Part shown: positions 25,442-40,899 of the stretch, one piece after another
Numbering within the stretch: the first letter of the stretch is position 1
Layout of the letters: each line of letters opens with the position of its first letter
Origin: Trueperaceae bacterium
GTDB lineage: Bacteria; Deinococcota; Deinococci; Deinococcales; Trueperaceae
DNA length: 51,436 nt
Assembly (NCBI GenBank): GCA_019454765.1
Contig: JACFNR010000015.1
Location: 3,213 to 54,648, forward strand
Direction: 5' to 3'
Made by a program: the position numbers and the translations under genes
Notes under the pieces: generated by a model
The model's input: only the letters and a program-made list of their open reading frames with translations
What the model was told of the DNA's origin: nothing
Database searches by the model: none

Positions 25442-28400
25442 GTGACGGTTTCCCGCGTGCTGGACGACCTGACCGGCGCCGCCGCCCGATCGGAGTTGGC
25501 GCCGGCGCTGGCCGAGTTCGCCGCCCGGCGCGACGCCGCCGGCGAGCACCACGCACTCGCCGTCATGGACGTCGACAACCTGAAGTCCCTCAACGACGTC
25601 TACGGTCACGCCACCGGCGACGCCGCCCTCCGTGCCGTGGCGGCGCGCGCGCTCGGCGCCCTCCGAAGCGGCGACCGGCTGTTCCGGTACGGCGGCGACG
25701 AGTTCGTGATCCTCCTGCCCGACACCGACCGCGCGGGCGCGGAGGCGATACTGCGCCGCGTTCACCAGCACGTTACGGCAGACCCGGTGCAGGCGGCGGT
25801 GTGGGTGTCCGTCGGCGTGAGCGTGGGCGTGGCCGCCACGGACGAAAGGGACGGGCGCGACCTGTTCACGCGCGCCGACGACCGCGCGCGCCGGGCCAAG
25901 CGCACGGGCCGCAACGCCGTGCTCGCCGACGACGGGGAGGCCGCGCCGCCCGCCGACCCGCTGAGCGGATCGCGCCTGCAGGGGCGGGACCCGCAGCTCG
26001 CCGCCTTCAGCGCCTTCCTGGCGACGCCGGGGCTCGCGGTGCTCCGGGTGGACGCCCCCGCCGGGGCGGGCGTGACGCGCTTCCTCGACGAGCTGGCCGT
26101 CAGGGCTCGGCAGGCGGGCCGGGCGGTCAGGCGCCTGGATGGGCGGGCGTCCCGCAGCGGACTCCACCTCTGGGCGCTCGACTCCGCCTACGCCGGTGTG
26201 GCGCACCACGAGGGCGTGGAGCGCGACCTCGCCGGGCTGATGGCCAACGACGCGGAGGCGCGCGGCCTGGTGCTCCTCGTCACGGCCGGGCCGTCGCTCG
26301 ACCTGGGCAGCGTGAGGCTGGTGGAGGCCCGGCTCGGCGCCGGCGGCGCGAAGCTGGTGGAGGTCGTGGCCCCCGGCGCTCACGGCGCCTTCGCTCCCGA
26401 TGAGCGGCTCCAGCTGACGCCGCTTGCGCCCGCCGAGGTCGGCGCGTGGCTCGGCGCGGCGCTGGGAGGGCCGCTCGACGGGCCGCTCGTGGCGGCGTTG
26501 ACGGCGGCGGGGGAGGGGCTGCCCGGCCGGGTGGCGCGCCTCGTCGGGCGGCTCGTGGCGAGCGGGGCGCTCGTGCGGCGTGGCGGCGTGTGGAGCGCCG
26601 AGCCGAGCGCCGTGGCGCGCGAGGCGGCGCGGCTCGCGGCGGAAGGCGAGGCGGGGGAGTCCGGAGGTCGCGCCGCCCCCCGCGTCACGCTGCCCGCGTG
26701 GGAGACGCCGCTCGTCGGCCGGGCGCCGTGGCTCAGGAGCGCCGGCGCCACCGCGCGCGAGCACCGCCTCGTCACCCTGGTGGGCGCCGGCGGCGCGGGC
26801 AAGTCCCGGCTGGCCGCGCAGCTCGCGCTGGAGCTGGCCCACGACCCGGCGGGCGGCGCGGCCGACGGCACCCACTGGGTGGATCTGAGAAGCGTCGGCG
26901 GCGCCGGGGCGCTGCCCGGCGCCCTCGCCGAGGCGGCCGGACTCGAGGGCGTCGAGGACGCCGAGGACCTGGCGGCGCGCCTGGGCACGCGGGAGCTGCG
27001 GCTGGTTCTGGACAACGCCGACGCGGTCGCCGAGTGGGCCGGCGGCCTGCCGCGCCTGCTGGCGCGCGCCCCCGGTCTGAGCCTGTTGGTCACCTCGCGC
27101 ATGCCGTTGCGCCTGCCGGGGGAGGTCGTGCTGGCCGTGCCCGCCCTGACGCATGTCGCGGCGCGCGAACTGTTCCGCCACGGGATGCGCCGCGTCGGCG
27201 TTCAAGACGAACCAGACGAGCGCCTCCTCGACGAGGTGCTCCTGCGCGTCGGCCGCGAGCCGCTCGCGCTGGAGCTCGCGGCCGCCTGGACGCGGATCCT
27301 GAGCGGCCCAGAGCTGCTGGCGAGGCTGGACGAGCAACCGGGATCGCTCGTGGCGGTGCCGGGCATGCAGCCACTCACCACGCGCTTCATCGACGTGGCG
27401 CGGCGGCTCATGAGCGAGGAGGAGCAGGCGGCCCTCGGGACGCTCGCCCTCATCCCCGGCGGCTTCACCGCCGAGGACGGCCGCGAGGCCAGCGGCGCCT
27501 CGGCGTTCTTCCTGCTGGCTCTGCTCGAGCGCTCCCTGCTGCGCCGCGACGGGGAGCGTTACTCGGTCCACTCCGCCATCGCCGAGCGTTTCCGAGCCGC
27601 GCTCGCGGACGTGGAGGCCGCGGAGGGGCGGGTGGCGCGCACCTACTCCGGACTGGCGCGGCGCCTGGGCGAGCTCCCCGGGCGCGAGCGGACGGAGCGG
27701 GGGTTCAAGCGGGTCGACGCGGAGCGCGCCAACCTCGAGAGCGCGCTGACCTGGCTGGCGAAGCGACGGGACGTCGCCGGGGTGTGGCCGCTCGTGCGGC
27801 TGCTGCGCGGCTACTACGACGTGCGGGGCAGGTCGCGTCGCGGGCTCGCCGTCTTCCGGCAGGTCGACGAGGCGCTCGCCGGTGCGGTGGACGCGGAGCT
27901 CCTGGCGTGGGTGAGGGAGGCGCGCGGGCTCTTCCATTGGCAGCGCGGCGAGGTCGACGCGGCCAGGGAGTGCGTGGCCGACGCGCTCGCGCTGCTCGCG
28001 CCGGGTGGACCGAACGCCACCTTCGGCATGGTGCTTAACACGGCCGGGATCGTCATGGACGGTGACTTCGACGAGCAGGTGGGTTACTTCGACGCCTCGG
28101 CGCGCATGCGCGCCTCGCTGGGCGACGAGTTCGGGGAGGCGCAGGCGCGCGGCAACGTGGCGTTGCTGCTGGCGTCGCGCGGGAGGCACGAGGAGGCGTA
28201 CGCGGCCCTGCAGGTGGCGCGCCGCAACTACGTGGCGGTGCGGCACGACAGCGGGCTGGCGTTGACCTTGGCCAGCATGGCGCAGCAGGCTCACGCGGGC
28301 CGGTTGCCGGCGGCCGGGGCCTTGGCGCTGGCGCGCGAGGGGCTCGAGCTGGCGGAGCGCATCGGCTACCCCTACGGCGCACGCCTCGCCGCGACCGCCA

Positions 28401-28579
28401 TGGCGGAGGTGTTGGCCGCCGGCGGCCGGGGCGAGGAGGCCGCCGCCGCGTTCGCGCGCGCCGCGCGCTGGGCCCACGAGGAGGAGCGCCCGGCCCTCGA
28501 GCACGACCTCCACGAGCGCGCCGCCGCGGCGCGCCTGGCCGGGCAGGCGGCCCTGGCGGCCGACCCGGAGAGCGCCTAG
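25442..28579 (+). CDS. GGDEF diguanylate cyclase fused to two ATPase-like domains and TPR repeats
   Basis: 1,045 residues. The GGDEF domain opens almost at the N-terminus (DDLTG at 8-12). It has an intact active-site GGDEF (84-88) and an inhibitory-site RSGD (75-78) exactly five residues upstream, so c-di-GMP synthesis with product inhibition is likely. A first ATPase-like region (about 180-400) has a degraded P-loop, APAGAGVTR. A second, STAND/NB-ARC-like region (about 415-700) has an intact Walker A GAGGAGKSR (Lys454) and Walker B LRLVLDNAD. Residues 720-1045 are helical TPR-like repeats. GTG at 25442 is preferred because a -10 box stands six bases before it. Confidence 0.85.
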   Translation: MTVSRVLDDLTGAAARSELAPALAEFAARRDAAGEHHALAVMDVDNLKSLNDVYGHATGDAALRAVAARALGALRSGDRLFRYGGDEFVILLPDTDRAGAEAILRRVHQHVTADPVQAAVWVSVGVSVGVAATDERDGRDLFTRADDRARRAKRTGRNAVLADDGEAAPPADPLSGSRLQGRDPQLAAFSAFLATPGLAVLRVDAPAGAGVTRFLDELAVRARQAGRAVRRLDGRASRSGLHLWALDSAYAGVAHHEGVERDLAGLMANDAEARGLVLLVTAGPSLDLGSVRLVEARLGAGGAKLVEVVAPGAHGAFAPDERLQLTPLAPAEVGAWLGAALGGPLDGPLVAALTAAGEGLPGRVARLVGRLVASGALVRRGGVWSAEPSAVAREAARLAAEGEAGESGGRAAPRVTLPAWETPLVGRAPWLRSAGATAREHRLVTLVGAGGAGKSRLAAQLALELAHDPAGGAADGTHWVDLRSVGGAGALPGALAEAAGLEGVEDAEDLAARLGTRELRLVLDNADAVAEWAGGLPRLLARAPGLSLLVTSRMPLRLPGEVVLAVPALTHVAARELFRHGMRRVGVQDEPDERLLDEVLLRVGREPLALELAAAWTRILSGPELLARLDEQPGSLVAVPGMQPLTTRFIDVARRLMSEEEQAALGTLALIPGGFTAEDGREASGASAFFLLALLERSLLRRDGERYSVHSAIAERFRAALADVEAAEGRVARTYSGLARRLGELPGRERTERGFKRVDAERANLESALTWLAKRRDVAGVWPLVRLLRGYYDVRGRSRRGLAVFRQVDEALAGAVDAELLAWVREARGLFHWQRGEVDAARECVADALALLAPGGPNATFGMVLNTAGIVMDGDFDEQVGYFDASARMRASLGDEFGEAQARGNVALLLASRGRHEEAYAALQVARRNYVAVRHDSGLALTLASMAQQAHAGRLPAAGALALAREGLELAERIGYPYGARLAATAMAEVLAAGGRGEEAAAAFARAARWAHEEERPALEHDLHERAAAARLAGQAALAADPESA

Positions 28580-29778
28580 GCCGGCACGCCCACGCGCGCC
28601 GCGGCGGCCGCGGCCTGCACCACGTCGGCGACCAGGTCGTCCGTCGCCTCGACGCCCACCGACAGCCGCACGAGCCCGTCGACCACGCCCTCCGCCGCCA
28701 GCAGTTCCCGCGGCAGGAGCTGGTGGGTGGTCGAGGCGGGGTGGCAGGCAAGCGACGCCACGTCGCCGAGGGACACGGCGTGGTCGAAGAGGCGCAGCGC
28801 CTCGAGGAAGGCCGCCGCCGCGGGCAGCCCGCCGGCCAGCTCGAGCGACACCATCCCGCCGAAGTCGCTCATCTGCCGCGCCGCCACGGCGTGACCCGGG
28901 TGCTCCTCCAGGCCCGGGTAGTGAACGCGCGCCACGCCCGGTAGGCCGCGCAGGGCTAGCGCCACCGCCCTGGCGTTGCGGCAGTGCGCCGCCATGCGCA
29001 GGTGCAGGGTGCGCATGCCGCGCAGCAGCAGGTGCGCCGCGAACGGGTCGAGGGTGGCGCCGAGGTGACGCAGCCCCTCCATGCGGATGGGTCCGGTCAG
29101 CTCGACCGGTCCCGCCACGACGCCTCCCAGGAGGTCGCCGTGGCCGCTCAAGTACTTGGTCGCCGAGTGCACCACGAGGTCGATGCCGTGTTCGCGGGGA
29201 CGCGTCAGGTACGGCGTGGCGAAGGTGTTGTCGCACACGCTGATCAGTCCGTGCGCCCGCGCCACCCGGCCCACTAGCGCCAGGTCGTGCACCCGCAGGT
29301 CGGGGTTGGTCGGCGTCTCCACGTAGAGCATGCGGCTGTGCGGACCCACGGCCCCCGCGAGCTCGTGGTCGGCCACGGCGCGCGCCGTCACGCCGAAGCG
29401 CGGCAGGAGGTCCTCCAGCAGGCCGCGCGTGCCGCCGTAGAGCGGCCCGAGGAGCAGCACCTCGTCGCCCTGGCGCAGCAGGCTCATGAACACGGCGGCG
29501 ATGGCGCCCATGCCCGACGCGAACGCCACCCCGTCCTCCGCGCCCTCCAGCGACGCCACCTTCTCCTCGACCGCCCTGACGGTGGGGTTGCCGACGCGCG
29601 AGTAGACGTTGCCCGCCGACTCGCCGGCGAACAGGGCGGCGCCCTGCGCCATGCTGCCGAGCACGAACGTGCTCGTCTGGTAGATGGGCGTGACGTGCGC
29701 CATGGTCAGCGGGTCGTGATGCTGCCCGGCGCGGACGGCACGCGTGGCGAAGGCTCGCCCCTGCCTGTCTTGTTCCAT
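28576..29778 (-). CDS. Cys/Met-metabolism PLP enzyme (cystathionine or methionine gamma-lyase type)
   Basis: 400 residues, full length. PLP-phosphate-binding YSRVGNP (Tyr59, Arg61), SATKYLSGHGD with the Schiff-base lysine Lys208, and VETPTNP identify the trans-sulfuration family. At the position where methionine gamma-lyases often carry Cys, the sequence is GPLYGGTRG, closer to cystathionine gamma-lyase or synthase, so the exact reaction is open. The enzyme is cytosolic. The start is ATG at 29778, five bases after a TAGACT box. The stop overlaps the opposite-strand stop of the GGDEF gene inside CTAG. Divergent from mmsA. Confidence 0.87.
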   Translation of the reverse strand: MEQDRQGRAFATRAVRAGQHHDPLTMAHVTPIYQTSTFVLGSMAQGAALFAGESAGNVYSRVGNPTVRAVEEKVASLEGAEDGVAFASGMGAIAAVFMSLLRQGDEVLLLGPLYGGTRGLLEDLLPRFGVTARAVADHELAGAVGPHSRMLYVETPTNPDLRVHDLALVGRVARAHGLISVCDNTFATPYLTRPREHGIDLVVHSATKYLSGHGDLLGGVVAGPVELTGPIRMEGLRHLGATLDPFAAHLLLRGMRTLHLRMAAHCRNARAVALALRGLPGVARVHYPGLEEHPGHAVAARQMSDFGGMVSLELAGGLPAAAAFLEALRLFDHAVSLGDVASLACHPASTTHQLLPRELLAAEGVVDGLVRLSVGVEATDDLVADVVQAAAAAARVGVPA

Positions 29779-29783
29779 GCCCG

Positions 29784-29789
29784 AGTCTA
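29784..29789 (-). promoter_or_regulatory. Candidate leaderless -10 box (TAGACT)
   Basis: On the minus strand TAGACT lies five bases before the ATG at 29778. There is no Shine-Dalgarno, so the transcript is probably leaderless. Confidence 0.5.
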
Positions 29790-29870
29790 CCCGCGCGGCT
29801 GGGGCGGGGTCGGTGCCGGGCCGACCGGCGGTGCGCGCGTCGGGGCCGAGGACCCTCCCTGACGCGTTCT

Positions 29871-29909
29871 TTGCCAACCGTCGCGCGGTAGGCGTACAAT
29901 GCGCCTACC
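29871..29909 (+). promoter_or_regulatory. Promoter of the pyrimidine-catabolism cluster with a palindrome around the -10
   Basis: TTGCCA (29871-29876, 5/6 match to the -35) is 18 bases from TACAAT (29895-29900, 5/6 match to the -10). The -10 box sits between perfect inverted arms GGTAGGCG (29887-29894) and CGCCTACC (29902-29909). A repressor bound there would block RNA polymerase directly. mmsA starts about 65 bases downstream of the predicted start point. Confidence 0.72.
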
Positions 29910-29972: not shown

Positions 29973-31454
29973 ATGATCGAAACGGCTCAAGACCTCCTCA
30001 ACTACGTGGGTGGCAAGTGGCAGCCCTCACGCTCCAGCGCGCGGCAGGACGTGCGCAACCCCGCCACGGGCGCGACCATCGCTCGCGTGCCCCTCAGCCC
30101 CAAGGACGAGGTCGACGAGGCCGTCAAGGTCGGCGTCCAGGCCTTCAAGGCGTGGCGCGAGACCCCGGTGGTCGACCGCATCAAGCCGCTCTTCAAGCTG
30201 CGTGAGCTGCTGACCGCCAACCAGGACGAGCTGGCGCGCACCATCACCAACGAGGCCGGCAAGACGTACGGCGAGTCGTTCGCCGAGATGGCCCGCGGCA
30301 TCGAGAACGTCGAGGTCGCCTGCGGCGCGCCCTACATGATGCAGGGCACCAACAACGAGGACATCGCGCACGGCATCGACGAGCACATGATCAGGCAGCC
30401 GCTCGGGGTGGTGGCGGCCATCACGCCGTTCAACTTCCCCGGCATGATCCCGCTCTGGTTCCTGCCGTACGCGGTCGCCACCGGCAACTGCTTCCTGCTC
30501 AAGCCGAGCGAGAAGGTGCCGATGACCACGCAGCTCCTGTTCCGCCTGCTAGAGGAGGCCGGCTTCCCCGCCGGTGTCGTCGGGCTCGTCAACGGCGGCA
30601 AGGAGACGGTCGACGCCATCCTGGATCACCCGGACGTCAAGGCGGTGTCGTTCGTCGGCTCCACCTCGGTGGCCAAGTACATCTACTCGCGCGCCGCGGC
30701 CAACGGCAAGCGCGCGCAGTGCCAGGGCGGCGCCAAGAACCCGGCCGTCATCCTGCCTGACGCCGACATGGAGATGGCCACGCGCATCGTGACCGACTCG
30801 GCCTTCGGCTGCGCCGGCCAGCGCTGCCTCGCCACGTCCGTCGCCATCACGGTGGGCGACGCGCGCAAGGAGTTCACGGAGCGCATGGTCGCGGCCGCGC
30901 AGGCGCGCAAGGTGGGTTACGGCCTCGAGAAGGGCGTCGACATGGGCCCCGTCATCTCGGCCGAGTCGAAGGCCCGCATCGCCGGCCTGATCGACAAGGG
31001 CCTCAGCGAGGGCGCGCGCCTGCTCACGGGCGGCGCCGACGCGGACATCGACGGCTTCAGCAACGGCTACTTCGTGCACCCCACGCTGCTCGACGACGTG
31101 AACCCCGGTTCGAGCATCGCCAAGACCGAGGTCTTCGGGCCGGTCCTGTCGATGATGCACGCCTCCAGCCTCGACGAGGCCATCGACTGGGTCAACGACC
31201 GCGCGTACGGCAACCAGGCCTCCATCTTCACGACCTCCGGCAGCGCCGCGAGGCAGTTCCGCCACCAGGCCGTCGCGGGCAACATCGGCATCAACCTCGG
31301 CGTGGCCGCTCCCATGGCCTTCTTCCCGTTCAGTGGCTGGAGCGAGAGCTTCTTCGGCGACTTGCACGCGCAGGGCGCGCACGGTATAGAGTTCTACACG
31401 CAGACGAAGATCGTCATCGAGCGGTGGCCCCAGACCTGGAGCCGCACGTTCTGA
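29973..31454 (+). CDS. mmsA: CoA-acylating methylmalonate-semialdehyde dehydrogenase
   Basis: 493 residues, the usual size. It oxidises methylmalonate semialdehyde to propionyl-CoA and malonate semialdehyde to acetyl-CoA with NAD and CoA. The nucleophile is Cys285 in FGCAGQRCLATS. The base position that is Glu in most aldehyde dehydrogenases is replaced in QGGAKNPAV, as in MMSDH. NAD-binding residues lie in ITPFNFPGMIPLWFLPYA. It precedes the reductive pyrimidine genes, where thymine breakdown yields methylmalonate semialdehyde and uracil malonate semialdehyde, so the context fits. It could also serve valine or inositol catabolism. Confidence 0.9.
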   Translation: MIETAQDLLNYVGGKWQPSRSSARQDVRNPATGATIARVPLSPKDEVDEAVKVGVQAFKAWRETPVVDRIKPLFKLRELLTANQDELARTITNEAGKTYGESFAEMARGIENVEVACGAPYMMQGTNNEDIAHGIDEHMIRQPLGVVAAITPFNFPGMIPLWFLPYAVATGNCFLLKPSEKVPMTTQLLFRLLEEAGFPAGVVGLVNGGKETVDAILDHPDVKAVSFVGSTSVAKYIYSRAAANGKRAQCQGGAKNPAVILPDADMEMATRIVTDSAFGCAGQRCLATSVAITVGDARKEFTERMVAAAQARKVGYGLEKGVDMGPVISAESKARIAGLIDKGLSEGARLLTGGADADIDGFSNGYFVHPTLLDDVNPGSSIAKTEVFGPVLSMMHASSLDEAIDWVNDRAYGNQASIFTTSGSAARQFRHQAVAGNIGINLGVAAPMAFFPFSGWSESFFGDLHAQGAHGIEFYTQTKIVIERWPQTWSRTF

Positions 31455-31581: not shown

Positions 31582-33009
31582 ATGGAGCACAGTGAGCTGT
31601 CCTTGGCGCAGTTGCAGGACTCGTTCTCCGAGACCTACCCGCGCTACACAGAGAACGAGGCGAGAGTCGAGGCCGACCGCTGCCTCTACTGCTTCGACGC
31701 GCCCTGCATAAAGGCCTGTCCGACCAGCATCGACATCCCCACCTTCATCAGGCAGATCGCCAACGACAACCTGACGGGCGCGGGCACCACCATCCTCGAA
31801 TCGAACATGATGGGGCACTCGTGCGGCCGCGTCTGCCCGGTCGAGGAACTCTGCGTCGGGGCGTGCGTGCTCGGCCGCGAGCACCGCCCGATCGCCATCG
31901 GCAGGCTGCAGCGCTACGCCACCGACCACATCTTCGACAACGACATCCAGCCGTTCGACCTCGTTCCCGACACGGGCAAGCGCGTGGCCGTCATCGGCGG
32001 CGGCCCGGCGGGCCTCAGCGCCGCCGGCGAGTTGGCGCGGCGCGGGATCCGGGCGACCGTGTTCGAGAAGGACGAGTTCGCCGGAGGCCTCTCCACCTAC
32101 GGCATCGTGACCCTGCGCGAGCCGACGCAGGTGGCGCTCGACGAGGCCGCCTTCGTCGAGAAGCTGGGCGTCGAGATCCGCACGGGAGTCGAGGTCGGCA
32201 AGGACGTCGGCATCGACCACCTCTTGAACGACTACGACGCCGTCGTGTTCGCTGCGGGCACCGGCCGCGTGCCCGACCTCGGCGTACCGGGCGAGGAACT
32301 CGGCGGCGTCGTGGAGGCGCTGCCCATGGTGCGGGCCAGCAAGCTCGCCTACCTGGACGGTTTGGATGGCTTGCGCGACATCGAGGTGGGCGACGAGGTG
32401 ATCGTGGTGGGCGCGGGCAACACGGCCATCGACGCCGCCACCATCGCCAAGCGCCTCGGCGCCGAGCGCGTCACGATGCTCTACCGCCGCAGCCGCGCCG
32501 AGATGAGCGCCTACGATCACGAGGTCGACTTCGTGCGCAACGAGGGCGTCGACATCCGCTTCCTCACCCAGCCCGTCGAGATCCTGGGCGAGGGGGGGCG
32601 CGTGACCGGCGTGCGCTGCGTGCGCATGAAGCTCGGCGAACCCGACGCCAAGGGCCGGCGCTCGCCGCAGCCCGTGCCGGGCACCGAGTTCGTGCTGCCG
32701 GCCGACCAGGTCATCAAGGCCATCGGGCAGGAGAAGCTCGTCGCGCTGTACGACGCGGTCGGGGTGGCTCACCGCAACGGTTACGTGACCACCGACGCCG
32801 AACTCAGGACCAGCAACCCGAAGGTGTTCGCGGCGGGCGACTGCATCCGCGCCACCGGCCACGCCATCACGGTACAGGCCGCCGAGGACGGCAAGATCGT
32901 CGCCAGGGCCATCGCCAAGCAGCTGGGAGTGGCCGACGTCGAGCCGAACCCCACCCGCGGCCGTTTCCTTCACGCCACGGCGAACGACATCGCGAGGATC
33001 CATGGCTGA
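31582..33009 (+). CDS. preT: NAD-dependent dihydropyrimidine dehydrogenase, FAD/Fe-S subunit
   Basis: 475 residues. It passes electrons between NADH and the PreA subunit during reduction of uracil and thymine. The N-terminal iron-sulfur region has CLYCFDAPCIKACP (about 34-47) and CGRVCPVEELCVGAC (about 81-95). The FAD-binding GGGPAGLSAAGELARRG and NAD-binding VVGAGNTAIDAA motifs follow, as in the N-terminal half of mammalian DPD. The start is ATG at 31582 with AGGAGGAG just upstream. It overlaps preA by eight bases, so the two are coupled. Confidence 0.93.
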   Translation: MEHSELSLAQLQDSFSETYPRYTENEARVEADRCLYCFDAPCIKACPTSIDIPTFIRQIANDNLTGAGTTILESNMMGHSCGRVCPVEELCVGACVLGREHRPIAIGRLQRYATDHIFDNDIQPFDLVPDTGKRVAVIGGGPAGLSAAGELARRGIRATVFEKDEFAGGLSTYGIVTLREPTQVALDEAAFVEKLGVEIRTGVEVGKDVGIDHLLNDYDAVVFAAGTGRVPDLGVPGEELGGVVEALPMVRASKLAYLDGLDGLRDIEVGDEVIVVGAGNTAIDAATIAKRLGAERVTMLYRRSRAEMSAYDHEVDFVRNEGVDIRFLTQPVEILGEGGRVTGVRCVRMKLGEPDAKGRRSPQPVPGTEFVLPADQVIKAIGQEKLVALYDAVGVAHRNGYVTTDAELRTSNPKVFAAGDCIRATGHAITVQAAEDGKIVARAIAKQLGVADVEPNPTRGRFLHATANDIARIHG

Positions 33010-34357
33010 CCTCACCACCAACTTCGCGGGAATCACCAGTCCCAACCCGTTCTGGCTCGCTTCCGCACCCCCCACCAACTCCGCCTACCAGATCAACAAG
33101 GCCTTCGAGTACGGCTGGGGCGGCGCCGTCTGGAAGACAATCGGCGATCCGGTCCTCAACGTCGTCAACCGCTACGGCCAGTTCCAGTACAACAAGAACC
33201 GGCTCATCGGTATCAACAACGTGGAGCTCATCTCCGACAGGCCCATCGAGGTCAACCTGAAGGAGATCCGCGAGATCAAGAAGCTCTGGCCCGACCGCGC
33301 CGTGATCGTGTCGGCCATGGTCTCCAGCAACGAGGCGGCCTGGAAGAAGGTGGTCCAGCAGATCGAGGACACCGGGGCCGATGGCATCGAGCTCAACTAC
33401 GGCTGCCCGCACGGCATGAGCGAGCGCGGCATGGGCGCGGCGGTCGGGCAGGTGCCCGAGTACTGCGAGATGATCACGAACTGGGTCACCTCGGCCGCCA
33501 GCATCCCCGTCATCGTCAAGCTGACGCCCAACGTCACCAACATCATCCCGCCGGCTCACGCCGCCATCAACGCCGGCGCCGACGGCATCTCCCTCATCAA
33601 CACCATCAACTCCATCACGGGCGTCAACCTCGACACCTTCGAGATGACCCCCAACATCGGCGGCAAGGGCGGCCACGGCGGGTACGCCGGGCCGGCCGCG
33701 CGCCCCATCGCGCTGCACATGCTGTCGCAGGTAGCGTCCGACCCGAAGTTCCAGGCGGCCGGCATCCCCATCTCCGGCATGGGCGGCATCGAGACGTGGC
33801 GCGACGCGGCGGAGTTCCTGCTCCTCGGCTCCACCAGCATGCAGGTCTGCACGGCCGTCATGCATTACGGCTTCCGCATCATCCACGAGCTGTGCGACGG
33901 CCTCTCGAACTGGCTCGACGAGAAGGGCAAGTCGTCCATCGAGGAGTTGCGCGGCGCCTCGGTGCACCGCATCTCCGACTTCGGCGACTTCGACCTCTCC
34001 TACCGCACCGTCGCCCTCATCGACGAGGACAAGTGCATCCAGTGCAACCTCTGCTACGTCGCCTGCGACGAGGGCGCGCACCAGTGCATCGACCTCACCA
34101 AGGACGGCAAGGTCGTCGACCCCGAGACGTACACGGGCGCCGAGCTCCTCCAGCCGGTGGTGCGCGAGGACGACTGCGTCGGCTGCGACCTCTGCAGCCT
34201 GGTGTGCCCGGTCGACGACTGCATAACGATGGTCGAGCGGCCCCCGAAGTTCGAGTCGGTCACCTGGAACGAGCTCCTGCGCACGCGACCGGAGGTGACC
34301 ACGGACTGGGACGCCATGGTGGCGTTCCGCGAGGAGAAGGGTATCGAGATCCACTGA
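33002..34357 (+). CDS. preA: NAD-dependent dihydropyrimidine dehydrogenase, FMN subunit
   Basis: 451 residues; catalytic subunit that reduces uracil/thymine to the 5,6-dihydro forms (reversible in vitro). The FMN TIM-barrel carries the active-site loop NYGCPHGMSERGMGAAVGQ, and IPISGMGGIETWRDA near the phosphate site. Two C-terminal 4Fe-4S motifs (CIQCNLCYVAC and CVGCDLCSLVCP) link it to PreT. Position and motif order match PreA of enteric bacteria. The start lies inside the preT end; the stop is followed by a perfect hairpin before hydA. Confidence 0.94.
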   Translation: MADLTTNFAGITSPNPFWLASAPPTNSAYQINKAFEYGWGGAVWKTIGDPVLNVVNRYGQFQYNKNRLIGINNVELISDRPIEVNLKEIREIKKLWPDRAVIVSAMVSSNEAAWKKVVQQIEDTGADGIELNYGCPHGMSERGMGAAVGQVPEYCEMITNWVTSAASIPVIVKLTPNVTNIIPPAHAAINAGADGISLINTINSITGVNLDTFEMTPNIGGKGGHGGYAGPAARPIALHMLSQVASDPKFQAAGIPISGMGGIETWRDAAEFLLLGSTSMQVCTAVMHYGFRIIHELCDGLSNWLDEKGKSSIEELRGASVHRISDFGDFDLSYRTVALIDEDKCIQCNLCYVACDEGAHQCIDLTKDGKVVDPETYTGAELLQPVVREDDCVGCDLCSLVCPVDDCITMVERPPKFESVTWNELLRTRPEVTTDWDAMVAFREEKGIEIH

Positions 34358-34421: not shown

Positions 34422-35801
34422 GTGAGCCTGCTCATCAAGAACGGCGAGATCGTCACGGCCGCCTCCCGGATGCGGGGGGATATCTTCTGCGAGGACGAGA
34501 CCATCACGGCCATCGGCCAGGGGCTGACGGCCCCCGCCGGCGCCGAGGTCATAGACGCGAGCGGCAAGTACGTGTTCCCCGGTTTCATCGACCCGCACGT
34601 GCACATCCACCTGCCGTTCATGGGCACCGTCACCAAGGACACCCACGGCACCGGCAGTCGGGCGGCCCTGGTGGGCGGGACCACCACCTACATCGAGATG
34701 CTGGCGCCGGCCAGGCAGGAAGACCTCATGCAGGGCTGGCGTCACTGGAACGAACTGGCCGCCGGCAACAGCGCCTGCGACTACACCTTCCACATCGGGG
34801 TCAGCAAGTTCGACGCCACCACCGAGGCGCAACTGCGCGAGATCGTGCAGCAGGGCATGACCTCCTTCAAGGTCTTCCTCTCCTACAAGGGCTTCTTCGG
34901 CGTCAACGACGAGGAGCTCTTCCGCACCCTCACCCTCGCCAAGGAGCTTGGCGTCAGGGTCACGGCGCACTGCGAGAACGACGAGCTGGTGGCCCAGCTG
35001 CAGGCGCAGCTGCTCGCCGCGGGCAAGACCGGGCCGGAGTGGCACGAGCCCTCGCGGCCCGAGCGGGTCGAGGCCGACGGCACGGGTCACTTCGCCACCT
35101 TCCTCGAGATAACGGGCGCCAAGGGCTACGTCGTGCACCTGAGCTGCGAGCCCGCCCTGGAGGCGGCGCTCGCCGCCAAGGCGCGCGGCGTCGACCTGGC
35201 CATCGAGTGCGTGGTGCCGCACCTCGTGCTCGACAAGACGTACGCCGAGCGGCCCGACTTCCAGGGCGCCAAGTGGGTCATGTCGCCGCCACTACGCGAC
35301 AAGCGCAACCAGAAGCCCCTATGGGACGCGCTTGCCGCCGGGCTGATCGACACGGTCGCCACGGACCACGCCCCCTTCGACTTCGCGGGGCAGAAGGAGA
35401 TGGGGCGCGGCGACTTCACCAAGATCCCCAACGGCATCCCCACCATCGAGGACCGGGTGAACCTCCTCTACACCTACGGGGTGAGCCGCGGCAGCCTGTC
35501 GCTCGAGCGCTTCGTGAGCGCGGCCAGCACCCGCGCCGCCCAGCTCTTCGACCTCTACCCGAGGAAGGGCACCATCGCCGTCGGCTCCGACGCGGACCTG
35601 GTCGTCTACGACCCCGGCTACCGGGGCCGCATCAGCGCCTCCACCCACAGCATGAACGTCGACTACTCAGGCTTCGAAGGCGTCGAGATCGACGGGCGCC
35701 CCAGCGTGGTGACGGTCCGCGGTCAGGTGGCCGTGAGGGACGGCAAGTTCGTCGGCGACCCGGGGCGCGGCAAGCTGCTGAGGCGAACCGCCGGTAGGTA
35801 G
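34422..35801 (+). CDS. hydA: Dihydropyrimidinase
   Basis: 459 residues, normal length. It opens the ring of dihydrouracil or dihydrothymine to N-carbamoyl-beta-amino acids. All metal ligands are present: His59 and His61 in DPHVHIH, carboxylated Lys150 in TSFKVFLSYKG, His183 in TAHCEND, His239 in VVHLSC and Asp315 in ATDHAPF. The start is GTG at 34422 with an AAAGGAC-type ribosome-binding site. It follows preTA; the next enzyme, beta-ureidopropionase, is not in the window. Confidence 0.93.
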   Translation: MSLLIKNGEIVTAASRMRGDIFCEDETITAIGQGLTAPAGAEVIDASGKYVFPGFIDPHVHIHLPFMGTVTKDTHGTGSRAALVGGTTTYIEMLAPARQEDLMQGWRHWNELAAGNSACDYTFHIGVSKFDATTEAQLREIVQQGMTSFKVFLSYKGFFGVNDEELFRTLTLAKELGVRVTAHCENDELVAQLQAQLLAAGKTGPEWHEPSRPERVEADGTGHFATFLEITGAKGYVVHLSCEPALEAALAAKARGVDLAIECVVPHLVLDKTYAERPDFQGAKWVMSPPLRDKRNQKPLWDALAAGLIDTVATDHAPFDFAGQKEMGRGDFTKIPNGIPTIEDRVNLLYTYGVSRGSLSLERFVSAASTRAAQLFDLYPRKGTIAVGSDADLVVYDPGYRGRISASTHSMNVDYSGFEGVEIDGRPSVVTVRGQVAVRDGKFVGDPGRGKLLRRTAGR

Positions 35802-35809
35802 AGACCCCC

Positions 35810-36646
35810 GTGACAGAGGCCCCCGTGATAATCGACGTCCAGGACGTCTCGAAGCTCTTCCGCGTCGGCAAGTCGGAAGCGGTGGCGCTGCAAGACGCCA
35901 GCCTGCAGGTCAGTGACGGGCAGTTCGTGAGCCTGATCGGCCCGTCCGGCTGCGGCAAGACCACGCTCATGCGCCTCGTCGCCGACCTCATCGAGCCCAC
36001 CACGGGGCGCATCACGGTGGCGGGCAAGACCCCGAAGGAGGCGCGCGCCTCCCGCGAGTACGGCTACGTCTTCCAGGCGCCCGCCCTCTACGACTGGCGC
36101 AACGTCGTCAACAACGTGACCCTCCCCCTCGAGATCATGGGTTGGTCCAAGAGCGAGCGCCGCGCCCGCGCCGAGCAGATGCTCGAGCTCGTCGGGCTCG
36201 AGGGGTTCCACCGCTCCTACCCATGGCAGTTGTCGGGGGGCATGCAGCAGCGCGTGTCCATCGCGCGGGCCCTCGCCTTCGACCCGAAGCTGCTCCTCAT
36301 GGACGAGCCGTTCGGTGCGCTCGACGAGATCACCCGCGAGGCGATGAACTTCGAGCTCCTGCGCCTGTGGCGGCAGACGAAGAAGACCATCGTCTTCGTC
36401 ACCCACTCCATCGCGGAGGCCGTGTTCCTCTCCTCGCACATCGTGGTGATGACGGCGCGGCCGGGACGCATCCGCGAGATCATCGAGGTCGACCTGCCCT
36501 ACCCGCGCGACGCCGAGACGCGCGAGACGGCGCGCTTCTTCGAGCTCACCACCCAGGTGCGCGAGGCGTTGCGGGTCGGCAAGGAGGGCGAGAGCGGCGC
36601 CGCCCGCGCCGCTAACGGTCGCTCCCTGGCCCAGGTCGGGTACTGA
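35810..36646 (+). CDS. NitT/TauT-type ABC transporter ATPase
   Basis: 278 residues. Walker A GPSGCGKTT, signature LSGGMQQRVSIARAL, Walker B LLLMDEPFGALDEITREAM and H-loop VFVTHSI are intact and typical of the nitrate/taurine/pyrimidine family. GTG at 35810 lies nine bases after hydA. It is followed directly by two permease genes and a binding-protein gene. With dihydropyrimidinase upstream, pyrimidine or hydroxymethylpyrimidine uptake is likely; this is inference. Confidence 0.9.
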   Translation: MTEAPVIIDVQDVSKLFRVGKSEAVALQDASLQVSDGQFVSLIGPSGCGKTTLMRLVADLIEPTTGRITVAGKTPKEARASREYGYVFQAPALYDWRNVVNNVTLPLEIMGWSKSERRARAEQMLELVGLEGFHRSYPWQLSGGMQQRVSIARALAFDPKLLLMDEPFGALDEITREAMNFELLRLWRQTKKTIVFVTHSIAEAVFLSSHIVVMTARPGRIREIIEVDLPYPRDAETRETARFFELTTQVREALRVGKEGESGAARAANGRSLAQVGY

Positions 36647-38581
36647 ATGGCGGGTGCCGGCCCCTTGCTCGGCAAGGCCACGAGGCGCCGCTTGGCCGCC
36701 GCCGTGCCGGTCGCCGTCGTGGTCACGATCGTCGTCCTGCTCATGTACCCCGTCGCGCTGTGGCTTGGCCTCCCGCTCGCCAAGCTGCGCATGGAGAACG
36801 TCGCCAACTGGGTGCGCGAGACCACCGCGCCGCACCCGCTCGCCGAGGCGCCCGCCGACCCGGCGGCGCCGGTCCCCGCCGGCACGCGCCTCGAGTTCGG
36901 ACGGGTCGGGCCGGCCGTCACCACCGACCGGTCGGTCCTCGTCTTCGCCGGTGAGCCCCTCGACGCGCGCTTCGAGGTCACGGGCGACGTCGTCACCCTC
37001 GCCGACCCCGTCGCGGGACCGTTGCTGGAGTGGGGCGAGGCGCTCACGGCCGTCGATGCCGACGGGCGCGTCTACCGGTTGCCCAGCGGCGCCGGGGCCG
37101 GCACGGCCCTCTACGCCGGCGGGCGGCTCCTCACGCCCGACGCGGTGGCGGCGGTCGAGCGGCCCGACGGGGCGCTCGCGACCTTCACTTTCCCGGGCGC
37201 CGGCGCAGGCGCCGGCCCGGTGCTCGTCAACGACGTCGTGCTGCTGGAGGGCGAGGGGTTCGAGGCCGATGGCACCGTCGTGAAGCTCGCGGCGCCCGCG
37301 CCCTTCAACGCCACCGTGAGGCGCGTCACGGGCGATTACGCCCTCCTGGACGCGGCGGGCACCATGATCGCGTTGGCGGACCCCGGCGCGGCGCCGCCGC
37401 GCGCGGCCCGCGCGGTACTCGGCCTGGCGGAACTGCTCGACGGCGCGGTGGACGGCAGCAACCGCGTCTTCCAGCTCCAACACGCCCCCCTGGTCGAGTC
37501 CGACGCGGAGCGCCGCATCATGCTCGACGGCGACGAGCTCTCCCCGGCGGCCGAGCGGCCGCAAGAACGCGTCGATGGCCAGCGCGCCACCTTCACCTTC
37601 GCCAGCGAGCGGGGGGTCGTCACGGTCGGCGGCGTCGAGGCGCTGGAGGGGAGCGACTACACGCGCGACGGCGCCACGGTCACGTTCGCCAAGCCGCCCG
37701 TGCGCAACGCGCCCCTCAGGCAGTACCCCGACTACCTCATCCTCGACCCCGCCAAGGGGATCATCGAGCTGGGGACGGCGCCCCAACCGGGCAGCCGGGT
37801 GTGGGCGGCGTCATACACCTACTACGACCACCCGTCCTGCGGTACCACCCCGCTCGAGTGCTTCTTCAGCATGCCGCAGCACCCCATGCCGTTCCCGCAC
37901 TGGATAGCGGCGCGCCTCGGGCCGTTCTTCGGGGCGTACCCGCTCAGCGACCCGCGCAACGTGATCCGCGCCACCATCTACACGGCCGGCGGCACGCTCG
38001 CCGCGCTCCTCTTCGGCGGCGCCTTCGGGGTCCTGCTCGCCATCGTCTTCGTCGCGATCCGGCCGCTCGAACGGGCGCTGCTCCCGTGGGTCATCGCCTC
38101 CCAGACGGTTCCCATCATCGCGCTCGTCCCCGTGCTGATCCTGCTCCTCGGCAACGCGGGCATCGTCGTGCAGACGAGCATGGTGCCGGCCGCCATCATC
38201 GGGGCGTACATAGCCTTCTTCCCGGTCACGGTCGGCACCGTCACGGGCCTGCGTGCCGTCGACCCGCTCTCCATCGACCTCATGAAGAGCTACGCGGCCA
38301 CGCCCTTCCAGCTCTTCTGGAAGGTGCGCTTCCCGGCCGCCGTGCCCTACCTGTTCGTCAGCCTCAAGCTGGGCGCCGCCGCCGCGCTGGTCGGCGCGCT
38401 CGTGGCCGAGACGGAGTCGAACAACCGGCTGGGGCTCGGCTACGCCATCGTGGGCCAGGTCCAGGCCGGCAACGTGTCGGACGTCTGGATCCTCCTGCTC
38501 ATCTCCGCCTTCGTGGGCATCGGCCTCGTGGCGCTCGTGGGCCTGTTCCAGCGCTTCATCGCCCCGTGGGAGCGCAGATGA
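36647..38581 (+). CDS. ABC permease with a large duplicated extracytoplasmic insertion
   Basis: 644 residues against about 250-280 usual for TauC/SsuC-like permeases. The first helix is at about 17-42. Residues 43-440 then form a soluble, beta-rich insertion before the remaining core (443-640), whose coupling loop GLRAVDPLSIDLMKSYAATP is normal. Inside the insertion two segments (about 132-246 and 265-380) align: both have AVD...RV..L, ...DG..ATFTF, V..LEG, DG, A.P...NA..R and DY..LD.A...I.L in the same order. A cysteine pair (398, 405) closes it. The fold recalls beta-sandwich modules of phage tail fibres. The gene begins right after the ATPase stop and overlaps permease 2 by ATGA. Confidence 0.88.
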   Translation: MAGAGPLLGKATRRRLAAAVPVAVVVTIVVLLMYPVALWLGLPLAKLRMENVANWVRETTAPHPLAEAPADPAAPVPAGTRLEFGRVGPAVTTDRSVLVFAGEPLDARFEVTGDVVTLADPVAGPLLEWGEALTAVDADGRVYRLPSGAGAGTALYAGGRLLTPDAVAAVERPDGALATFTFPGAGAGAGPVLVNDVVLLEGEGFEADGTVVKLAAPAPFNATVRRVTGDYALLDAAGTMIALADPGAAPPRAARAVLGLAELLDGAVDGSNRVFQLQHAPLVESDAERRIMLDGDELSPAAERPQERVDGQRATFTFASERGVVTVGGVEALEGSDYTRDGATVTFAKPPVRNAPLRQYPDYLILDPAKGIIELGTAPQPGSRVWAASYTYYDHPSCGTTPLECFFSMPQHPMPFPHWIAARLGPFFGAYPLSDPRNVIRATIYTAGGTLAALLFGGAFGVLLAIVFVAIRPLERALLPWVIASQTVPIIALVPVLILLLGNAGIVVQTSMVPAAIIGAYIAFFPVTVGTVTGLRAVDPLSIDLMKSYAATPFQLFWKVRFPAAVPYLFVSLKLGAAAALVGALVAETESNNRLGLGYAIVGQVQAGNVSDVWILLLISAFVGIGLVALVGLFQRFIAPWERR

Positions 38582-39777
38582 TGACCGACGTCGAACCGGA
38601 CCTCGCCGTGATCGGCCCCGCCGAGGCGGCCAGGGCCGCCTGGCGGCCGCACTGGCCCACCCTGCTCCTCCTCGTCGCGGCCCTCGCGGGCCTGGCAGGC
38701 CCGTTCGAGGCCGGGGCGCGGGCGTACCTCCTCGAGGGGGGCGGCAACCCGCTCACCTCCGGGCTCGCGCTCCTCCTCGTGCTCGGCGCCGCCGTGGTGC
38801 CCGCCGCCTGGGGCGGGCCGTGGACCGTCCCCATCGCCACGCCGCTGGCGCTCGCCGCCGCCCTGCTCGCCCTCCTCGGGCAGCGCGCCCTGCCGGGTCC
38901 GGCCGGCTGGGGCTACTGGCTCGTCCTCCTTGGCGGCCTCGCCGCCGCCGCCACCGCGGCCGGCCGCGTGAGCGTCATAGAGCTCGAGAGCGACGCCCCG
39001 CGCTGGCAGCACCGCGTGCAGGAACTCGTGCCCGCCGGCACCGTGGCGTTCCTCGTGCTCCTCGCCTGGGAAGGGCTGGTCGTCGGCTCGCGCGTGCCGA
39101 AGGGCATCTTCCCGCGCGCCTCCGACATCTGGACGGCGTTCCTCGGCTCGTGGCGGGTGCTGCTTGCCGACGCCTACCTCACGTTCGTCAAGGAGGTACT
39201 GTTCGGCTTCGCCGTCGGCCTGACTACCGGCTTCCTCGTCGGTAGCGCCATCGCGTTCAGCCGCTTCCTGCAGCGCGGCTTCCTGCCGCTCGCCACCGCC
39301 TTCGGGGCCGTGCCGATCGTGGGCCTCGCGCCCGTCCTCGGGCGCGCCCTCGGCGTCGACTGGGAATCCAAGGCCGCAGTGGTCGTGATAGTCACCTTCT
39401 TCCCGGTCGTCCTCAACACGGTGCAGGGGCTCACGCTGGTCGACCCGCTCAAGCTCGAGCTGCTGCGCTCCTACGCCGCCAGGCCGCTGACCGTGTTCTT
39501 CTCCCTGCGGGTGCCCAACGCCCTGCCCTACCTCTTCAACGCGCTCAAGGTCGCCGTGGTCGTCGGGATCGTCAGCGTCATCGTGGCGGAGTTCCTGATC
39601 CCCGGGCCGCCCAACGGGCTGGGTCAGCGCATCAGCCTCTCCGCCCACCGCGGCGCGTTCGACATCGTCTTCGCCGCGATCCTCGTCTCGAGCCTCATCT
39701 CCATGGCGCTCTACGCCGCCATCACCTTCCTGGAGCGCAAGCTGACTGCTTGGCACCCCTCGACGAGGGGGTCGTGA
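38578..39777 (+). CDS. ABC permease, second subunit with extra N-terminal helices
   Basis: 399 residues. The C-terminal ~250 form the usual TauC/SsuC-like permease, with coupling loop GLTLVDPLKLELLRSYAARP. The first ~130 residues add about four hydrophobic helices not found in the standard family. The start ATG at 38578 overlaps the preceding stop as ATGA, so it is co-translated with the insertion-bearing permease; the two presumably form a heterodimer. The open frame extends much further upstream only as a shadow of that gene. Confidence 0.87.
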   Translation: MMTDVEPDLAVIGPAEAARAAWRPHWPTLLLLVAALAGLAGPFEAGARAYLLEGGGNPLTSGLALLLVLGAAVVPAAWGGPWTVPIATPLALAAALLALLGQRALPGPAGWGYWLVLLGGLAAAATAAGRVSVIELESDAPRWQHRVQELVPAGTVAFLVLLAWEGLVVGSRVPKGIFPRASDIWTAFLGSWRVLLADAYLTFVKEVLFGFAVGLTTGFLVGSAIAFSRFLQRGFLPLATAFGAVPIVGLAPVLGRALGVDWESKAAVVVIVTFFPVVLNTVQGLTLVDPLKLELLRSYAARPLTVFFSLRVPNALPYLFNALKVAVVVGIVSVIVAEFLIPGPPNGLGQRISLSAHRGAFDIVFAAILVSSLISMALYAAITFLERKLTAWHPSTRGS

Positions 39778-39849: not shown

Positions 39850-40899
39850 ATGAAACGCACGCTGGTAAGCCTGTTCGCCCTAGTCATGCTCGGCCTGCCC
39901 GTCGGGATGGCGCAGAACCTCATCCCCATCAACTTCCAGTCCAAGTGGTTCCCGCAGGCGCAGTTCGCGGGTTACTTCGTGGCCCAGGACAAGGGGTTCT
40001 ACGCCGAGGAGGGGCTCGACGTCACCGTGCTCGACGGCGGCAACGTCAACCCGGCCGTGGCGGTGGCCTCCGGCAACGCGGACTTCGGCACCGACTGGCT
40101 GGCCAACATCCTCGTCCAGCGCGACCAGGACCTGAAGACCGTCTACATCGGTCAGATGTACCAGCGCGCCGGCTACCGTCTCGTGGCCCTCAAGAGCTCG
40201 GGCATCGAGACGTTCGACGACATGGCCGGCCGCAAGGTCGGCGTGTGGGCCTTCGGTAACGAGTTCGCGACCGAGGTCGTCTTCGCCAAGGCGGGTCTCA
40301 CGTCCAACCTCGACCCGACCGTAGCCAACCCCGACGTCGACGCCGTCGTCTACGCCTTCGACCCGTCGCTCGTCTTCCCCAACGAGGTCGACGTGGCCAG
40401 CGCCATGACGTACAACGAACTCGACCAGATCGTCGGGCTGGGCTACGACCTGAGCACCCTCAACGTGCTCGACCCCGCCACCATCGGCGCCGACATCCTC
40501 GAGGACAGCGTGTTCGCCAACCCCGAGGTGCTCGCCAGCACGAACTTCAAGGGCTCGGGCCTGAGCGGTCGCGAGGTCGCCGAGCGCTTCCTGCGCGCGT
40601 CCATCCGCGGCTGGGAGTACGCCGTGGCCAACCAGGACGAGGCCGTCGGCATCGTCCTCAAGTTCTGCGGCGACACCTGCGCCGGCTCCGGCAGCCGCCA
40701 GAGCCCCCTCATCCACCAGACCTGGCAGATGGCCGAGGTCGCCAAGCTGGTCAAGCCCACGCCCGACACCGCCGTCGGCTCCCTCGACCGCGACGCGTTC
40801 GAGCGCTCCGTGGCGCTGCTCGTGGACGTCGGCCTCATCAACAACGCCTACACCTGGGACGAAGTCGTCGATCCCAGCATCTACGACGCCATCAAGTAG
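39850..40899 (+). CDS. NMT1/THI5-like ABC transporter substrate-binding protein
   Basis: 349 residues with a signal peptide (MKRTLVSLFALVMLGLPVGM, cleavage near MAQ). The NMT1/THI5-like domain is shown by NFQSKWFPQAQFAGYFVAQD and KGFYAEEGLDVTVLDGG, followed by NADFGTDW. Such proteins bind pyrimidines, riboflavin precursors or thiamine precursors. It is the last gene of the transporter, has a good GGAGG site six bases before ATG, and is followed by a strong hairpin. The enzyme genes upstream point to a pyrimidine ligand. Confidence 0.9.
   Translation: MKRTLVSLFALVMLGLPVGMAQNLIPINFQSKWFPQAQFAGYFVAQDKGFYAEEGLDVTVLDGGNVNPAVAVASGNADFGTDWLANILVQRDQDLKTVYIGQMYQRAGYRLVALKSSGIETFDDMAGRKVGVWAFGNEFATEVVFAKAGLTSNLDPTVANPDVDAVVYAFDPSLVFPNEVDVASAMTYNELDQIVGLGYDLSTLNVLDPATIGADILEDSVFANPEVLASTNFKGSGLSGREVAERFLRASIRGWEYAVANQDEAVGIVLKFCGDTCAGSGSRQSPLIHQTWQMAEVAKLVKPTPDTAVGSLDRDAFERSVALLVDVGLINNAYTWDEVVDPSIYDAIK

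Follow-up and report, generated by a model that had tools for sequence, protein, structure and literature searches.

An ABC importer permease encoded in the window, the whole 51,436-nucleotide stretch of Trueperaceae DNA analysed here, carries about 346 extra residues between its first and second transmembrane helices (TM1 and TM2). The insertion is predicted to be an all-beta stack of small modules, contains a tandem duplication and was found in Trueperaceae only. Its borders were set against nine insert-free orthologs of 284–307 aa, which come from other families of the same order. The coordinates of the permease (permease 1), of its parts and of the surrounding operon are collected in Table 1. 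No relevant literature was found on such an insertion or on this transporter.

Table 1. Features of the transporter operon and of the insertion-bearing permease (window positions).
Feature	Position	Strand	Remarks
Methylmalonate-semialdehyde dehydrogenase family gene	29973..31454	+	Upstream of preT; TIGR01722 above cut-off
preT-like subunit of dihydropyrimidine dehydrogenase	31582..33009	+	Family matches; syntenic
preA	33002..34357	+	NCBIfam PreA equivalog, above cut-off
Dihydropyrimidinase (hydA)	34422..35801	+	NCBIfam TIGR02033, above cut-off
ABC ATPase of the transporter	35810..36646	+	Domain matches; synteny
ABC permease 1 with insertion	36647..38581	+	Intact ORF, 644 aa; best PDB fold matches of full model CmpB/NrtB
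First helix, including TM1	36668..36796	+	Model helix, residues 8–50; aligns with TM1 of short orthologs
Insertion, all-beta (predicted)	36797..37834	+	Residues 51–396; missing from sister-family orthologs
Probable degenerate half-unit U0	36881..37024	+	Residues 79–126; profile-profile probability 62
Repeat unit U1	37040..37438	+	Residues 132–264; self-alignment, profile-profile
Repeat unit U2	37439..37837	+	Residues 265–397; membrane-proximal in sequence, best-conserved part of insert
U2 motif E303-R-P-x-E-R-V-x-G311	37553..37579	+	Mostly invariant (17 orthologs); candidate interface
U2 motif R353-N-A-x-x-R358	37703..37720	+	Invariant (17 orthologs); candidate interface
Invariant Cys398...Cys405 pair	37838..37861	+	After insertion; kept in insert-free orthologs
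BPD_transp_1 transmembrane domain and cytoplasmic coupling (EAA-type) region	38018..38575	+	Residues 458–643; Pfam E 1.1e-18
ABC permease 2	38581..39777	+	398 aa; four extra N-terminal hydrophobic segments
NMT1/THI5-like binding protein	39850..40899	+	Signal-peptide-like N-terminus; no lipobox seen

Permease 1 is a type I ABC importer permease of the NrtB/CmpB/TauC type. Its Pfam match to BPD_transp_1 (PF00528) scored 68 bits against a curated cut-off of 26.4; no other Pfam family, MalF-P2 included, matched at E <= 1. The whole chain was modelled by AlphaFold2 with a pLDDT of 90.5 and a pTM of 0.72, and a Foldseek search of the PDB with the full model returned CmpB and NrtB first (E 4e-8 to 3e-6; TMt 0.71 for the best match, at E 4.1e-8). 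The scores for the NCBIfam equivalogs SsuC, TauC and NtrB (39.8, 19.3 and 33.6 bits) lay below the respective cut-offs of 347, 342 and 209 bits. Permeases of the NrtB/CmpB/TauC/SsuC type have the same transmembrane domain and also share the partner ATPase and an NMT1-type binding protein, but their chains are about 250–300 residues long and have no such domain after TM1. The TM1–TM2 loop is usually short in NrtB/TauC-like permeases, although this is not strictly defining, and permease 1 departs from that pattern. Type I importers have the coupling segment of their transmembrane domain on the cytoplasmic side. Since this EAA-type segment lies near residues 535–560 of permease 1 and the N-terminus is basic, TM1 would end outside the membrane, and the insert should be extracytoplasmic.

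The first-pass annotation had placed an insertion after TM1 at residues 43–440. Its presence there was borne out, but these borders were slightly too wide, because the short forms also have the Cys398–Cys405 loop and the helix that precedes TM2 (about residues 398–438). On this alignment, both cysteines and the pre-TM2 helix are part of the ancestral loop. In the model, the insert leaves from the long TM1 helix and comes back via a long strand at residues 385–396. Base composition gave no sign of foreign origin, GC3 being 0.95–0.97 throughout and GC 0.70–0.78. On the minus strand, an open frame of 687 aa (35723–37786) spans the insert region; it is probably a by-product of the high G+C content and not a gene.

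Modelled alone, the insert reached a pLDDT of 93.9 and a pTM of 0.86. The all-beta model and the short insert-free orthologs agree with its original description as a beta-rich, duplicated insertion in a family with short loops. The proposed duplication, two segments of about 115 residues (132–246 and 265–380) sharing AVD..RV..L, DG..ATFTF, LEG, NA..R and DY..LD.A in the same order, proved strongly significant on self-alignment, with a repeat unit of about 130 residues. U1 and U2 aligned with a local score of 130, compared with 29.6 +/- 5.7 and a maximum of 57 in 1,000 shuffles. Profiles of the two units built from 15 orthologs matched each other with a probability of 99.5 (E 4.6e-23), while 60 column-shuffled controls did not exceed a probability of 2.8. 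Upstream of U1, residues 79–126 matched the second half of U2 (score 27.5, shuffled maximum 13.6; shuffled maximum of the probability 0.9), which is suggestive of a third, half-length degenerate unit (U0).

Within one protein, U1 and U2 are 25–38% identical, whereas the mean identity between proteins is 42.6% for U1 with U1 and 50.2% for U2 with U2. The duplication therefore probably predates the sampled genera, and the two copies appear not to have been homogenized. No further copy of the unit was found in the same genome outside the permease 1 gene.

The insert diverges much faster than the transmembrane domain, with mean identities of 32.5% (residues 47–131), 41.2% (U1) and 49.9% (U2), or 32–50% overall, against 76.9%. 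Invariant positions number 21 at residues 255–397 (17 orthologs) and six at residues 47–254 (15 orthologs). Those in U2 include E303, R304, P305, E307, R308, R353, N354 and R358 (17 orthologs). The distal units thus vary fast, and the conserved part is the membrane-proximal U2 rather than the distal tip.

The insert was found in 18 of 39 Trueperaceae genomes, and all 18 in which permease 1 was found carry it. This count is that of 19 matches less one, and the genera number 12, less any counted for the rejected genome, G035. There, a weak match (locus L082, E 1.1e-4) was spurious, as it overlies an ATPase gene and its frame has an internal stop. No insert-free ortholog of permease 1 was found in Trueperaceae, the remaining genomes giving either no match or weak matches to the permease domain (G061 and G062 were outside the search). 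In a 111-genome search of the phylum, the insert was found in none of the 72 non-Trueperaceae genomes. Similarly, tblastn at E <= 10 yielded no match in phage and plasmid collections, and two scans of viral contigs returned pattern matches and no relative. A scan of genome contigs, whose reach is close relatives, returned seven loci titled Trueperaceae, Truepera, Deinococcales or Deinococcota.

Two units are present in 16 of the 18 genomes (in G012 split over two contig ends). The other two (G006 and G022, loci L024 and L025) belong to genus g2 and encode one-unit forms of 433 and 431 aa, whose lone unit is nearer to U2 (49% and 46% identity) than to U1 (28%). In the tree, in which the base of Trueperaceae is poorly resolved, the one-unit forms are sister to the two-unit form of G012 with support of 100/97. 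This placement disfavours a single-unit ancestral state and makes loss the simpler reading; the one-unit genus has probably lost the distal part.

Searched against curated families and PDB sequences, the insert of the window protein gave chance-level matches only. No PDB entry or curated family covers it. Among PDB folds nothing matched under E 1e-3; the weak matches included the N-terminal part of the CBA120 tailspike TSP4 (E 0.019, probability 0.90). Another weak match, over 63 columns, was to Gp48/49 of phage B2 (TMt 0.65). Predicted viral proteins yielded 28 fold matches at E <= 1e-3 with low overall TM-scores. Among those with a name, phage tail and structural proteins predominate; the library is viral only, so that cellular proteins may match better. 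PHROGs gave weak virion and tail-fibre matches. A profile of the unit matched four XD2/XD3 domains of CBA120 over 40 columns with a probability of 53 (shuffled maximum 1.3) and a score of 27.1 (maximum 14.7 in 100 shuffles), and its XD-type match in a PDB-wide hmmsearch had an E of 1.2. In addition, CBM_X2 (PF03442) and DUF2460 (PF09343) each matched 6 of 18 homologs locally (best E 9.4e-8 and 1.4e-4), in both cases over parts of the profile only. The CBM_X2 cut-off of 28.9 bits was passed by one ortholog (L019, 32.5 bits, profile positions 15–56 of 83). The best DUF2460 match (L020) reached 21.8 bits, below the cut-off of 30.4. The window protein itself matched neither family.

The XD2/XD3 modules of CBA120 TSP4 and T4 gp10 are likewise tandem small beta modules with a similar V-x-V-x-G / dY-x-x-d-g-x-x-V-x-F hairpin, but they belong to virions and the insert to an ABC permease. 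In phages, these modules mediate protein-protein contacts (PMC8825819). The similarity is a resemblance and not proven descent; it is mostly confined to a beta-hairpin about 40 residues long, and convergence may account for it. It is conceivable, but in our view doubtful, that XD-like connector modules of phage-tail type were captured by the permease in one bacterial lineage, duplicated and now form a docking tower on the importer, to which either the binding protein or some envelope partner would attach. Should the units really derive from such connectors, a viral assembly module would have been reused in an unusual way by a membrane transporter.

Other type I importers are already known to carry large additional domains on their permeases, namely MalF-P2 and the fused binding domains of GlnPQ and OpuA. 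MalF-P2 sits between TM3 and TM4. Like it, the insert is a large, presumably extracytoplasmic domain within such a permease, but it comes after TM1, has about double the length of P2 and contains a tandem duplication. In the maltose importer MalFGK2, P2 (MalF residues 91–271) is periplasmic and touches the binding protein (PMC3150292). GlnPQ carries substrate-binding domains fused in tandem to the permease chain (PMC8025302). Importers of the GlnPQ/OpuA type resemble permease 1 in having extra extracytoplasmic domains on this chain, but theirs adopt substrate-binding folds and take the place of a separate binding protein, neither of which is true of the insert. Permease 1 is unusual in combining an insert placed after TM1 with a tandem duplication, this type of module and an apparent restriction to one bacterial family.

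By analogy with MalF-P2, which sets a precedent for a permease domain that touches the binding protein, the insert could serve outside the membrane as a platform for docking or gating at the transporter's periplasmic mouth, with a similar role at another loop; we give this about an even chance of being right. The conserved, membrane-proximal U2 would pack on the permease and offer a protein-protein interface, with the operon's own binding protein as the likeliest partner, and the variable distal units would lengthen the platform. U2 is read as the interface-bearing base because it is the most conserved unit and the sole one kept in the one-unit genus. The retention of the insert in all 18 Trueperaceae genomes found with the permease, together with the confident model, counts in favour of docking, and so does the weak likeness of the modules to the contact-making XD2/XD3 modules of phages. 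Against it, the sister-family orthologs, whose operon matches and includes the same kind of binding protein, do without the insert, and its divergence relative to the transmembrane domain would be unusual for an obligatory interface.

Contact with the envelope is the next reading to be weighed. Here the insert would reach into the periplasm, bind glycans or proteins of the cell wall or outer envelope and so anchor the importer. The likeness to phage tail modules, the local CBM_X2 similarity and the fast variation of the distal units, as is often seen in surface-contact parts, would all fit. However, the CBM_X2 match that passed the cut-off is essentially the hairpin motif, the operon shows no evident envelope partner, and conservation lies in the membrane-proximal unit and not at the tip, so that we regard this role as unlikely, though worth keeping in mind. 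We rate as more improbable again a lineage-specific stabilizer or largely neutral ornament that shields or stiffens the permease and has no partner of its own. The insert-free transporters of sister families, the probable loss of distal units in one genus and the rapid divergence are consistent with it, but a confidently folded block kept in 18 of 18 genomes, with its 21 invariant positions, is not what it would lead one to expect. The first-pass suggestion that the insert captures substrate fared poorly. An additional fused substrate-binding domain, like those of GlnPQ, would accord with the extracytoplasmic position and tandem organization, yet the modules are small and all-beta, and no binding protein appeared among matches in Pfam, NCBIfam and PDB sequences or in the top 50 of the PDB fold matches. 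A separate NMT1/THI5-type protein is moreover retained in the operons of both long and short forms, and this reading is therefore very improbable. The high G+C content and the long antisense ORFs of the region could raise the suspicion of a wrong reading frame or an assembly error. Such an artefact is hardly credible given homologs in 18 genomes in frames free of internal stops (apart from the split gene of G012), the presence of the insert in G017, a genome assembled as one contig of 3,260,398 bases, the conserved residues and the confident fold.

How type I importers acquire extracytoplasmic parts can be studied here as in a natural experiment. Related genomes have the same operon with zero, one or two units, which allows a direct comparison of what each step does to docking and transport.

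The first-pass annotation had also asked whether the insertion always lies next to preTA/hydA. Within the reach of their contigs, the long-form loci share the gene order preT-preA-hydA-ATPase-permease 1-permease 2-binding protein, but the insert-free orthologs are likewise linked. Among the seven insert-free loci examined (L050–L054, L061 and L063), hydA lies upstream in six, five of which also have preT and preA; the other, L054, ends after hydA. Around the transporter of L052 (G040), neither preTA nor hydA lies within the 19 kb fetched. Since insert-free orthologs adjoin the same genes, the preTA/hydA linkage does not explain the insert. The presence of preTA and hydA in the operon suggests a pyrimidine, dihydropyrimidine or hydantoin as the cargo.

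In both the long- and the short-form groups, the N-terminus of the binding protein resembles a signal peptide and shows no evident lipobox. Permease 2 has about 150 extra N-terminal residues containing its four additional hydrophobic segments, and in short-form operons there are about two. A close homologue of the dehydrogenase-family gene upstream of preT occupies the same place only in the same genus and in G009 among the loci compared. Upstream of the operon, a gene of the methionine gamma-lyase/sulfhydrylase family lies on the minus strand (28576–29877), with no equivalog cut-off reached among the matches listed. It is preceded on the plus strand (25442–28579) by an ORF of 1,045 aa that has a GGDEF diguanylate cyclase domain in its N-terminal part.
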